A program made the translations under genes and the position numbers. DNA of 45,912 nt from Calorimonas adulescens. GTDB taxonomy: Bacteria > Bacillota > Thermoanaerobacteria > Thermoanaerobacterales > UBA4877. Below are positions 16,472 to 22,334 of the stretch, piece by piece; position 1 is the stretch's first letter, and each line of letters begins with the position of its first letter. The DNA lies in NCBI RefSeq assembly GCF_008274215.1, contig NZ_VTPS01000021.1, positions 1 to 45,912 on the forward strand, given 5' to 3'. The notes beneath the pieces are model-generated. The model did no database searches and had not been told where the DNA came from. It was given only the letters and a program-made list of their open reading frames with translations.

Positions 16472-17245
16472 CTAAACCATCTCTAATTCAGGAATCACAA
16501 CAGAATAGTCTCCTGCCTCTATCTTTGCTTTAACACCGTATGTCTCATATATGTTTTCACTGCTGACAACCTTTTCTATCTCTCCTTCGGCTATTACCGT
16601 CCCATTTTTTATAAGTACGGCCCTGTCGCAAAAATTAAGCGCAATATTAAGGTCATGCACTATGGATACCACTGTCATCCCTCTGTGCGAAAGTTCCCTG
16701 ACAAGCCCCATTATATCAAGCTGGTATTTTATATCCAGGTGTGACACAGGCTCGTCCAGCAGCATTATTTCTGGCTGTTGCGCAAGCGCTCTGGCTATCA
16801 AGACTCTCTGGGCCTCACCACCGCTTATCTCATCCATCCTTCTGTCCTTTAGCTCATACACACCACAGATCTTAAGGCACTCCTCAACAACCCTCCTATC
16901 CTCCTCCTTTTCATTGCCGAAAAAATCCATATAGGGGCTCCTGCCCATCATAACCATCTCATACACAGAGAACCCAAGAGAATTCACAGCATCCTGAGGC
17001 ACAAGACCTATTATCCTTGCCCTTTCTCTGGGCTTTAACTTTACTATATCCACACCATTTATAAAGACAGTACCGGCATCAGGCTTGTAATAGCCTGAAA
17101 GATGCCTTAAAAGCGTAGTCTTCCCGGCCCCATTGGGACCCAGCATTCCGGTAACCGTTCCCTGTGGCACACTGAAGGTAATTCCATTCAATATAGGCTT
17201 CTCATCAATGCTAAAATTAAGGCCTTTTACATCAATAACATTCAA
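16472..17245 (-). CDS. btuD: ABC transporter ATP-binding protein, vitamin B12/cobinamide uptake
   Basis: A 257-residue FecE/BtuD-type ATPase that powers corrinoid import. Walker A is GPNGAGKTTLLRHLSG (about 38-53), the Q-loop is VPQDAVNSLG, the signature is ISGGEAQRVLIARALAQ and Walker B is IMLLDEPVSHLDI near 165, followed by SIVHDLN. The start codon is TTG, with AAGGGGA upstream overlapping the end of btuC, which is only one base away. Specificity for cobalamin comes from the riboswitch and the cob neighbours; siderophore transporters share the same fold. Confidence 0.9.
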   Translation of the reverse strand: MNVIDVKGLNFSIDEKPILNGITFSVPQGTVTGMLGPNGAGKTTLLRHLSGYYKPDAGTVFINGVDIVKLKPRERARIIGLVPQDAVNSLGFSVYEMVMMGRSPYMDFFGNEKEEDRRVVEECLKICGVYELKDRRMDEISGGEAQRVLIARALAQQPEIMLLDEPVSHLDIKYQLDIMGLVRELSHRGMTVVSIVHDLNIALNFCDRAVLIKNGTVIAEGEIEKVVSSENIYETYGVKAKIEAGDYSVVIPELEMV

Positions 17246-17246
17246 A

Positions 17247-18266
17247 TCAATTCATCCCCTTGTTTCTCTTTAAAAGATAAATAAAGAACGGTCCCCCCAG
17301 CAGGGCAGTAATGATACCAACAGGAATTTCAACCGGTCTTAAAATGTACCTTGCTATCGTATCGGTAAAAACCATAAATCCTGCCCCAACTATTAAAGTG
17401 AGGAAGAACAACCTGCGATTGTCCGGACCTGCGATTATCCTCAATATATGCGGAATTACAAGCCCCACAAAGCCTATTATCCCGCTTACAGACACGCAGG
17501 CTGCAGTCACCAGGGATGATATGATAATTATCCTTACCTTGGTCCTCTCCACGTCTACCCCCAGGCTGGAGGCGGTCTCATCCCCGAGGAGCATTAAGTT
17601 GAGCTCTTTCATATAAAATACAAGGAAAAGTACGCCGATAGAGACAAAAACCAGACTAAATTTTACCTTGTCCCATGAGGACGACACAAAACTGCCCATG
17701 GTCCAATATACAATTTCCTCCATATCATCATGATCCAGAAACATGATGAGCGACATCCCTGCAGTAAGAAGATTTCCAAGGGCAACACCCGATAGCAGAA
17801 GCGTGGTTGGGGGTATCCTGCCATTCACCCTTGATATCGTAAGAGCAGTAAAGCTGACCAGCAGTGCCCCTACAAACGCAAACAGATTTATCATACCTAT
17901 GCCCCAGTAACCACCGTCTAAATGCAGTGCAATAGCCACAGATGCACCAAAAGCTGCTCCGGAAGATACGCCTATAATATAAGGGTCTGCAAGCGGATTT
18001 TTAAAGACTGACTGATATGTTAATCCAACAACGGAAAGCCCCAGCCCAACTATAAGCGCCAGAATTGTCCTTGGGAGCCTCAGATTCATTATAATGTTTA
18101 TATGTGACTGAGGCACGTCAAGCAAGGATCCGGAAACCCTAGAGAAAAGTATCCTTACTGCCTCCACTGGGGTAATGCTGGCACTCCCTATAATCAGGCT
18201 TGCCACAATGCATATCATTAAAAAAACTATTGAAACGCTCAACAAGAAATAAAATCTGCCCTTCAT
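17247..18266 (-). CDS. btuC: FecCD/BtuC-type permease, vitamin B12/cobinamide uptake
   Basis: A 339-residue polytopic permease with about ten membrane helices. Conserved family stretches are LRLPRTILALIVGLGLSVVG near residue 65, NPLADPYIIGVSSGAAFGA near 92 and GFVGLVIPHILRII near 265, the last near the coupling helix that contacts the ATPase. The ATG has AGAAGG seven bases upstream. It lies between btuF and btuD in one transcription unit behind the B12 riboswitch. Confidence 0.92.
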   Translation of the reverse strand: MKGRFYFLLSVSIVFLMICIVASLIIGSASITPVEAVRILFSRVSGSLLDVPQSHINIIMNLRLPRTILALIVGLGLSVVGLTYQSVFKNPLADPYIIGVSSGAAFGASVAIALHLDGGYWGIGMINLFAFVGALLVSFTALTISRVNGRIPPTTLLLSGVALGNLLTAGMSLIMFLDHDDMEEIVYWTMGSFVSSSWDKVKFSLVFVSIGVLFLVFYMKELNLMLLGDETASSLGVDVERTKVRIIIISSLVTAACVSVSGIIGFVGLVIPHILRIIAGPDNRRLFFLTLIVGAGFMVFTDTIARYILRPVEIPVGIITALLGGPFFIYLLKRNKGMN

Positions 18267-18277
18267 ATCTTTACCTT

Positions 18278-19207
18278 CTATTTGAAGACTTCAGGGTGAA
18301 TTATCTTTGCCAACTCGTTTATCCCCTCAAGTATCCTCTCTGTTGGCCTGGTGATAATGTTCTCATCTATTACAAATATCTTCCCATTTTTAGCTGCGTT
18401 TGTCTCCTTATAACCCGGTTTTTCATTGAGTTTGTCCACATCGCCGGCATGGTTTGTGGCTATAATGATATCAGGGTTATGTTCCACCAGCTTCTCAAGG
18501 CTGTAATCCTGCCATCCTTCAACATCAGAGGCTACATTTTCACCACCCGCTATGTTTATAGCAGCATCGATAAAGGTACCCTTGCCGGCAGTATAATTGC
18601 TCTGGCCCACGGAAACCGCAAAATATACCTTGGGCCTATCCCTGTCCTTCACCTTTTCCTGTATGCTGGATATACCATCCTTGATTTTTTTAATAATTTC
18701 TTCGGCTTTGTCCTGTGTTCCAGTGATTTTACCGATCATTTCATAAGATGTGTATATATCATCAAATGAATCAGGAACTGTTATAATGACCGGTATGCCC
18801 ATCTCCTCTAATTTCTCCGCATTCTCTTTACCAAAGGTGCCATCATCCACAAGCACTACATCTGGTTCCGCCCCAGCAATAGCCTCTATATTTGGTGTCG
18901 AAAATCCACCCATCTTGGGTTTTTGACTTACCTCAGGTGGATAGTCATCATAGTCCGACACGCCAACGATTTTATCGGCCAGGCCCAGCTCATACAGGAT
19001 CTCAGTATTGCTTGGTGCCATTGAGACAATCCTTTGAGGCTCCTTCTCTATAGTAAATTCCCTGCCCATAAAATCCTTTATGGTGACGGGAAATGCCGAA
19101 TTGCTCTGTGCCTGCTGCGATCCTGTCTGTCCTGTGCTGTTTGAGCCGCAGCCTGCAACTGACAGCACCAAGAAAGCAATAAGCATAAGTATACCTATCT
19201 TTTTCAT
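18278..19207 (-). CDS. btuF: Corrinoid-binding lipoprotein BtuF
   Basis: Substrate-binding lipoprotein of the importer, anchored outside the membrane. The start at the ATG at 19207 gives a signal peptide MKKIGILMLIAFLVLSVAG followed by a lipobox cysteine (LSVAGC) and a serine/glutamine-rich linker. The body matches the PF01497 periplasmic-binding family (RIVSMAPSNTEILYELGLADKIVGVSDYDD split across residues 65-95; AEPDVVLVDDG). An in-frame ATG at 19225 lacks a ribosome binding site, while GGATGGGTGG precedes the chosen one. First gene of the cobalamin operon, 70 bases after the riboswitch terminator. Confidence 0.9.
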   Translation of the reverse strand: MKKIGILMLIAFLVLSVAGCGSNSTGQTGSQQAQSNSAFPVTIKDFMGREFTIEKEPQRIVSMAPSNTEILYELGLADKIVGVSDYDDYPPEVSQKPKMGGFSTPNIEAIAGAEPDVVLVDDGTFGKENAEKLEEMGIPVIITVPDSFDDIYTSYEMIGKITGTQDKAEEIIKKIKDGISSIQEKVKDRDRPKVYFAVSVGQSNYTAGKGTFIDAAINIAGGENVASDVEGWQDYSLEKLVEHNPDIIIATNHAGDVDKLNEKPGYKETNAAKNGKIFVIDENIITRPTERILEGINELAKIIHPEVFK

Positions 19208-19277
19208 ACCCACCCATCCTTTCATTAATCAATTAATCAAATAAGAAATCGATTGCCTCTTCTATTTTTACAGTCAT

Positions 19278-21517: not shown

Positions 21518-22288
21518 TTAACTGATATTCTTTAATAGTTCATTTAAAGCATTGGAAACGGACCCTGATGCCTCTTCCTGTCTGTTTGATATCTCTTTCA
21601 GTTCATTTATCTCATTACTCATTGACACAAGTTGTGATTTTATATTATCTATGGTATCAATGATATTGCCGTAAGAGCGGTCCGTGTCCCTTGTAAGGTT
21701 TTGAATCTCGTTGGCGACTACTCCAAACCCTCGGCCATACTCGCCCGCCCTGGCCGCCTCGATTGAGGCATTGATCCCAAGTATCTTTGTCTCTTTCGTT
21801 ATTCTTTTTATTGATTCTACCAGTGAGTCTATCTTTTCAACATTTTTACCCGTCATCTCCATACATTCAAATATAGCGTTGGTCACGGTGTTTATTCTTT
21901 CAATCTCCTGAAAAAGTGACCTGATATTAGAAGCAATGACCTCGCCTTGGGTTTTCAGGTTTTCCACCTGCATATCTAATTTCTCTATAACGCTCATCAT
22001 GATTCTTGCCATTGCAGAATCCATTACCCTTATATTGCCAGCCAGTGCCCTCAGTCTTTCCAACACATCCTCATTCCCAGTCACCTCTATGATAAGGTCG
22101 GGGTTAAACTCCAAAACCGACCCAATGTCATTGCTGGTATTTATACCTATCTCTTTAGCAAATTTCATACCTGGTGCGTCATCATTGACATCAATCACAC
22201 TTATCACAGACATAACCTCTGAGTCTTTAAAATGCTTGAGTATATTATATCCTCCCTTGCCTCCTCCAACCAGAACGCTTCTTATCAT
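21518..22288 (-). CDS. Soluble chemoreceptor-like protein: Rossmann-type domain fused to MCP signalling domain
   Basis: The first 100 or so of 256 residues look like a nucleotide-binding Rossmann fold: SVLVGGGKGGYNILKHF with the glycine loop at 8-13, acidic VIDVNDDAPG at the end of the second strand, then PDLIIEVTGNEDVLERL, as in NAD-binding dehydrogenases. The rest is a coiled coil with the conserved tip of methyl-accepting chemotaxis proteins (ETKILGINASIEAARAGEYG, then RGFGVVANEIQNL near residue 195). There is no membrane helix, HAMP or periplasmic domain. It could be a cytoplasmic redox or nucleotide sensor feeding CheA, or an MCP-like scaffold used elsewhere. GAGGGGGG precedes the ATG. 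Cofactor binding is inferred. No che genes are nearby. Confidence 0.8.
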   Translation of the reverse strand: MIRSVLVGGGKGGYNILKHFKDSEVMSVISVIDVNDDAPGMKFAKEIGINTSNDIGSVLEFNPDLIIEVTGNEDVLERLRALAGNIRVMDSAMARIMMSVIEKLDMQVENLKTQGEVIASNIRSLFQEIERINTVTNAIFECMEMTGKNVEKIDSLVESIKRITKETKILGINASIEAARAGEYGRGFGVVANEIQNLTRDTDRSYGNIIDTIDNIKSQLVSMSNEINELKEISNRQEEASGSVSNALNELLKNIS

Positions 22289-22334
22289 AGTACCCCCCTC
22301 TTAAGAGTATAACATATTTTTATAAAGTAAATAT

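Follow-up and report, generated by a model that had tools for sequence, protein, structure and literature searches.

This locus raises the question of why a Rossmann-type domain of the kind found in dehydrogenases should be joined, in a single protein, to the signalling tip of a chemoreceptor. The gene lies on the minus strand at positions 21518-22288 of the window (by which we mean the whole analysed stretch of Calorimonas adulescens DNA, 45,912 nucleotides). Its frame has 771 bases and encodes 256 amino acids plus a stop, and a Shine-Dalgarno-like AGGGGGG can be read in the sequence of the same strand at 22293-22299. The open frame, the Pfam MCPsignal match and the AlphaFold2 model together describe a Rossmann domain followed in the same chain by a short chemoreceptor hairpin. 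The first-pass annotation had already noted two sequence types in one frame; the same fusion in one frame is present in 95 of 158 distinct family proteins, and it is therefore not a sequencing error. What is computed comprises the two domains with their predicted folds, the conservation of motifs of cofactor type, the existence of the family and the chemotaxis genes of the host. With a slight preference over the contrary, we presume that the protein is a cytoplasmic chemoreceptor that detects NAD(H) or a related nucleotide on behalf of CheA, with the ligand, the dimerisation, the coupling to CheA and the behaviour all presumptive.

The receptor half is identified by the Pfam model MCPsignal (PF00015), which matches residues 138-251 with an E-value of 5.9e-20 and 72.2 bits against a cut-off of 34.6. 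This is far beyond chance and is the single Pfam domain above cut-off in the 256-residue protein, MCPsignal matches being the only ones at E<=1e-5. The match is limited to profile positions 20-130 of 172 and the arms are short; methylation sites are not evident at a level below that of a systematic scan. The helical hairpin of the signalling domain occupies residues 91-255 (21524-22018, minus strand), with arms of about 82 and 79 residues according to the model and the structural alignments. The predicted hairpin superposes on that of the crystal structure 1qu7_B (165 residues, rmsd 1.9), and it is because of this alignment that residues 91-255 are read as a hairpin, though the secondary-structure line is unbroken. 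The tip, which in chemoreceptors is the CheA/CheW contact region, comprises residues 166-198 (21695-21793, minus strand), as located by invariant columns and by alignment to the Tm14 chains of the crystal structures 3ur1 and 4jpb, which we take to be Tm14 tip structures containing CheA and CheW. Residues N173, A174, I176, E177, A178, A179, G182, G185, F188, V191 and A192 are invariant in the 30 aligned rows, so the tip reported in the first pass is present and intact.

The same hairpin and tip occur in Tm14, a soluble receptor of Thermotoga maritima (3g67, 3g6b); phmmer gives an E-value of 3.1e-16 to 3g6b, and 3g67 ranks first in Foldseek. Tm14, however, is a chain of 213 residues in which no Rossmann domain was matched. 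The protein from the window is likewise without a membrane helix, as had been stated earlier: its highest mean Kyte-Doolittle hydropathy over 19 residues is 0.89, while about 1.6 is usually required. YfmS is a soluble receptor of Bacillus subtilis (PMC7542364, as far as the part covered describes it). The hairpin of YfmS (286 aa, model 9a72) superposes on ours over 159 residues with an rmsd of 1.1 and Z 13.5; the first 114 residues of YfmS are outside the alignment, and the likeness is confined to the hairpin of the model. Among the 20 loci found with the N-domain profile in ten Bacillaceae-type genomes there is no Rossmann-receptor fusion (one frame in L206 has a tip-like motif, on a strand stretch of its own).

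Counted on either side of the tip glutamate, most relatives have arms of 96/92 residues, several of 89/77-89, and the window protein of 82/79; shorter arms are found in L139 (68/60) and in six Desulfuromonadales-type members (59/54). The losses are near-equal on both sides, 14 and 13 residues in our protein (about two heptads each) and 37 and 38 in the shortest, and the lengths covary over the 30 rows except in L080 (95/67) and L122 (96/126), both of which have altered C-terminal ends. Paired shortening of both arms is as expected of a hairpin that folds and works. The six Desulfuromonadales-type receptors (L123, L130, L132, L135, L136 and L137), with arms of 59 and 54 and about 16 heptads in all, are of unusual shortness among chemoreceptors.

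The remark that typical MCPs are larger fits the genome of the window, in which the seven other receptor frames have 489-687 aa. The C-terminal arm has 79 residues versus 160-172 in five of these seven and 288 and 408 in the remaining two, and a hairpin of about half the length of most host receptors may not fit their array. The tip also differs from those of the other host receptors at several positions (KETKILGI versus QTNLLSL).

Residues 1-95 (22004-22288, minus strand) are assigned to a Rossmann-like input domain of five strands and four helices by the predicted model, VIA and a profile match. In the AlphaFold2 model of the whole protein (30 alignment rows; mean pLDDT 90.5, pTM 0.53) the strands lie at residues 2-7, 26-32, 50-52, 65-68 and 87-89, and pLDDT in this domain is about 90 or more. 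The first-pass annotation, which had described dehydrogenase-like strands here and proposed structure prediction as the check, is upheld in this respect: the predicted fold is Rossmann-like, and a non-Rossmann fold was not seen. The best structural matches are acylating acetaldehyde dehydrogenase (95 residues aligned to 4lrs_B, rmsd 1.8, VIA Z 12.7) and Gfo/Idh/MocA enzymes; the list also includes formyltransferases and MurC, and the fold alone therefore names no ligand. At the sequence level, a profile of 29 diverse N-domains retrieves 11 distinct PDB sequences at E<=0.001, all of them dehydrogenases or related oxidoreductases, with acylating acetaldehyde dehydrogenases first (E 1.1e-7); the NAD-binding domains of these enzymes are the nearest solved sequence relatives. 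NCBIfam gives a weak partial match to PRK08300 (acetaldehyde dehydrogenase) at residues 4-54 (E 9.9e-5, 21.8 bits of 166). Among the Pfam matches listed, no model above cut-off covers residues 1-95, and GFO_IDH_MocA (PF01408) is not among the best 25 of the 35 matches of this protein with E up to 10.

In fold and motifs the domain resembles the NAD-binding domain of acylating acetaldehyde dehydrogenases (1nvm, 4lrs, 7z3s) and the Gfo/Idh/MocA oxidoreductases, at an identity of about 15-26% in structural alignments. Unlike our protein, these dehydrogenases have a catalytic second domain; residues 96-256 are here the receptor hairpin, and it is the absence of the catalytic domain that leads us to read the N-domain as a sensor. 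The domain is five-stranded and stops where the hairpin begins, so that the classical dinucleotide site may be incomplete or draw on a dimer partner for a part of it.

The architecture is not confined to this genome. Searches with the N-domain match 8 of 61 genomes (the window's own and its relatives), and at E<=1e-6 a profile of eight such sequences has matches in 124 of 398 phylum genomes; the matches in other genomes are beyond chance, with E-values down to 1.3e-38. Scanning named genomes yielded 71 loci, in Syntrophomonas, Moorella, Thermosediminibacter, Thermoanaerobacter, Desulfosporosinus and many Bacillaceae and, scattered, in Desulfuromonadales, Kapabacteria, Omnitrophota, Azospirillum and others. 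In the 72 proteins formed by these and the one in the window, Pfam at E<=1e-5 finds MCPsignal in 35, Sigma54_activat in 27, HisKA in 4 and GFO_IDH_MocA (PF01408) in 9. Motif-based sorting of 158 distinct proteins gives 95 receptors, 39 sigma-54 activators and 24 others. A set of 60 further phylum frames was chosen mostly for a length near 300 aa and does not represent the outputs fairly. Receptors account for 49 of these 60 frames (41 by the tip motif and 8 by eye: L170, L174-L177, L182, L183 and L186); the remaining 11 consist of eight proteins of the Rossmann-PAS-HTH type, two domains that stand alone and one frame truncated at the end of its contig. The possibility that the fusion is unique to the window is rejected by the 95 proteins of the 158 that carry a receptor tip. 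A search for the same architecture, suggested in the first pass, thus yields a recurrent family rather than an oddity, and one whose N-domain is also borne by sigma-54 activators, including those of the Bacillus BkdR type.

Several further members deserve separate mention. Eight proteins of 303-321 aa (L188, L190, L192, L193, L195, L196, L197 and L198) combine, by eye, the Rossmann domain with a PAS-like region and an HTH of Fis-like type at the C-terminus and are without the sigma-54 ATPase; they are motorless look-alikes of activators, perhaps competing with the full-length ones. A frame of 780 aa at L063:4030-6369 joins the N-domain to PAS/GAF-like parts and, by eye, an HD-GYP-like domain. 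A copy in Thermoanaerobacter thermocopriae (L080:2622-3365) has no glycine loop and an altered C-terminus, and looks like decay or an assembly flaw.

A tree of the N-domains, built by a quick method from 155 of the 158 rows and 104 columns with 68 of 152 inner branches left open, clusters the outputs: there are 3 changes among the receptor and sigma-54 rows, and 10 over four output groups versus 62.5 in shuffles. The row of our protein is placed only by its pairing with the copy in a sister genome, G001.

The BkdR-type activators of Bacillaceae, located upstream of ptb-bcd-buk, have the same N-domain, and one of them is the best match in 10 of 10 genomes, the BkdR identity being taken from the neighbours. 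In these activators the N-domain is followed by PAS and the sigma-54 ATPase domain, in our protein by the receptor hairpin. A BkdR-type activator would have a sigma-54 AAA+ domain and an HTH; Pfam finds neither in the window protein. In the part of the source covered, BkdR is described with PAS/PAC domains only (PMC4428206). The portions of the open-access literature covered (including PMC6615313, PMC4428206, PMC5137498, PMC7542364 and PMC3964821) describe neither a Rossmann-domain chemoreceptor nor the N-domain on BkdR, a weak negative since most subscription papers lie outside this set. Soluble receptors and Rossmann sensors are each known; of their combination we found no description in the open-access literature and consider it a variant.

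The residues conserved in the domain are those of a cofactor site, and it is for this reason that NAD(H) is put first as the ligand. The loop GGGKGG (residues 8-13; 22250-22267, minus strand) has the GxGxxG pattern, whose glycines are present in 91, 92 and 92 of 92 receptor-type relatives; the loop seen in the first pass is therefore where it was reported, and its loss in all orthologues, which had been named as grounds for giving up the reading, is not seen. Such a loop may also bind NADP, FAD, SAM or nothing. Strand 2 ends with the acid D33 (22190-22192), which is D in 41/41 rows and in 92/93 receptor-type relatives; an acid at this point as a rule accompanies a preference for NAD(H) over NADP(H). 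After strand 2 follows the A-P-G motif at residues 38-40 (22169-22177; A 37/41, P 41/41, G 38/41), and after strand 4 E-V-T-G at residues 68-71 (22076-22087; in receptor-type relatives E 87/94, T 94/94, G 93/94), all on the minus strand. The sigma-54 members keep the same residues, that is, the three glycines, the acid, T and G, in 37/37, 37/37, 36/37, 37/37, 36/37 and 37/37.

It is rather unlikely, but worth weighing, that the same soluble receptor reads acyl-CoA, a keto acid, a dicarboxylate, NADP or SAM and not NAD(H). Such a ligand would agree with the nearest relatives, acylating acetaldehyde dehydrogenases, which act on acyl-CoA and aldehydes, and with the A-P-G motif, which is typical of this domain family; the conserved residues, however, are those of the cofactor site, including the near-invariant acid, and the dehydrogenase substrate domain is absent. 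The gene neighbourhoods bear on the same point. By Pfam, fumarase is a neighbour of the sigma-54 relatives at L088, L091 and L103, together with fumarate reductase, malic enzyme and a succinyl-CoA-ligase-like gene, respectively, and the relative at L114 adjoins ptb-bcd-buk, which marks it as BkdR. Of seven more such loci examined by eye, L062, L099, L121, L126 and L127 look like bkd, and L060 and L061 are without such genes. We read these neighbours, from their sequence assignments, as genes of apparently NAD-linked catabolism. That BkdR-type and fumarase-linked activators adjoin genes of keto acids and C4 acids could also mean that pathway intermediates are sensed; the NADH/NAD+ ratio is one candidate for a signal shared by branched-chain keto-acid oxidation, C4-acid metabolism and swimming, an acyl-CoA or an acid being others.

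The receptor loci are less informative, as no widely recurrent partner gene was found at the 33 loci and the window: the largest neighbour cluster covers 6 of 34 and consists, by eye, of ABC-transporter ATPases. An uptake system of the BtuF/FecCD/ATPase type lies downstream of the receptor gene at 16472-19225 of the window. A BtuF/BtuC-like pair near the receptor gene is found only in the window, L074 and L077 among these loci, possibly by chance.

Returning to the nucleotide-sensing receptor, we would propose an intracellular nucleotide cofactor as the ligand of the Rossmann domain, with NAD+ or NADH the likeliest; once bound, the cofactor would report how the cell stands in redox or catabolic terms. 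The domain leads directly into the short hairpin, about 23 heptads in all; hairpins should pair into a four-helix bundle, whose tip would join CheA and CheW and change kinase activity, so that swimming may be steered by the metabolic state as energy or redox taxis. The logic would be shared with Rex, an NADH-sensing repressor whose Rossmann domain reports NADH/NAD+ with DNA binding as the output, although no Rex entry is among the matches listed.

A domain that no longer binds a ligand but serves for dimerisation or for docking another protein, e.g., a dehydrogenase, seems to us distinctly improbable. It has a precedent in the sigma-54 activator RtcR, whose Rossmann-type CARF domain binds the RtcA/RtcB proteins (PMC9650030, in the part covered). 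Stand-alone Rossmann domains of about 125-136 aa occur in Aneurinibacillus, Skermanella, Azospirillum and two further genomes (L106, L116, L119, L199 and L200), and these could dock to partners. Docking, however, would not need the loop glycines, the acid and T-G, all of which are kept across receptors and activators.

Whether the tip serves chemotaxis can be judged from the hosts, whose CheA and CheW the first pass had suggested looking for. The genome of the window encodes CheW twice, along with a CheA whose end is of the CheW type; beside them, the translations read as CheB, CheC, CheD, SigD, FlhF and FlhG, and FlhA is also present in this genome. The CheA domain H-kinase_dim was found in 65 of 66 genomes searched, and all 65 with the receptor fusion are positive (G023 by a partial H-kinase_dim only; this host lies outside the phylum sample). 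The same domain occurs in 329 of 398 genomes of the phylum sample anyway, so that the co-occurrence is only a modest sign. After removal of 64 fusion hosts the count is 265 of 334, among which other fusion hosts may remain, and the genomes are related, which makes the association not independent of kinship.

The sister genome G001 offers a natural deletion. It keeps the Rossmann half as a frame of 91 residues (L069:4121-4405, L012, L129), with the receptor half missing and the loop changed to GGDKGG, in the gene order nth - N-domain - VanW - ogt-like - BtuF-like that it has in common with the window. At least six other receptors and CheW are retained in G001, and the protein is therefore dispensable there; this is no argument against its function in the genome of the window. 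Loss of CheA, G001 being the one of 66 genomes without it, was considered as the cause and rejected: on contig C66 a short frame with a partial CheW-type domain lies beside the CheW gene, and the CheA of G001 is thus probably cut by an assembly gap.

The deletion with its GGD loop, together with the L080 copy that has lost the glycine loop, would suit a tip used outside chemotaxis or a gene that is a decaying remnant, which we regard as very improbable. The copy in the window is intact, with the family motifs and tip residues preserved and a gene order shared with G001, and CheA is found in 65 of 65 fusion hosts searched. In addition, the hairpin scores up to 91.7 bits to family receptors versus 55.5-68.6 to the seven other receptors of the host, a difference that points to joint inheritance of the two halves. 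The reuse of the tip for another complex, offered in the first pass beside the nucleotide-reading receptor, has little in its favour.

We therefore retain the cytoplasmic receptor for NAD(H) or a related nucleotide as the preferred reading. It is tempting to extend it to one undescribed cytosolic NADH/NAD+ sensor module placed on several outputs, namely, receptors, histidine kinases, one HD-GYP-like protein and sigma-54 activators, BkdR among them, by which swimming and catabolic expression in many anaerobic Bacillota would share a redox signal; we hold this possibility tentatively and rate it somewhat below even.

If the reading is true, this is a chemoreceptor family with a direct pyridine-nucleotide sensor. 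Many soluble receptors are without a known input, and the present family offers an input domain with a readable cofactor signature in a protein small enough to be purified whole. The matched shortening of the arms, down to about 16 heptads, presents a natural series on the minimal length of a receptor. Considering that the N-domain is common to BkdR, for which the target operon is known, a single answer about its ligand could explain the inputs of two signalling families and directly test redox or energy taxis in strict anaerobes.
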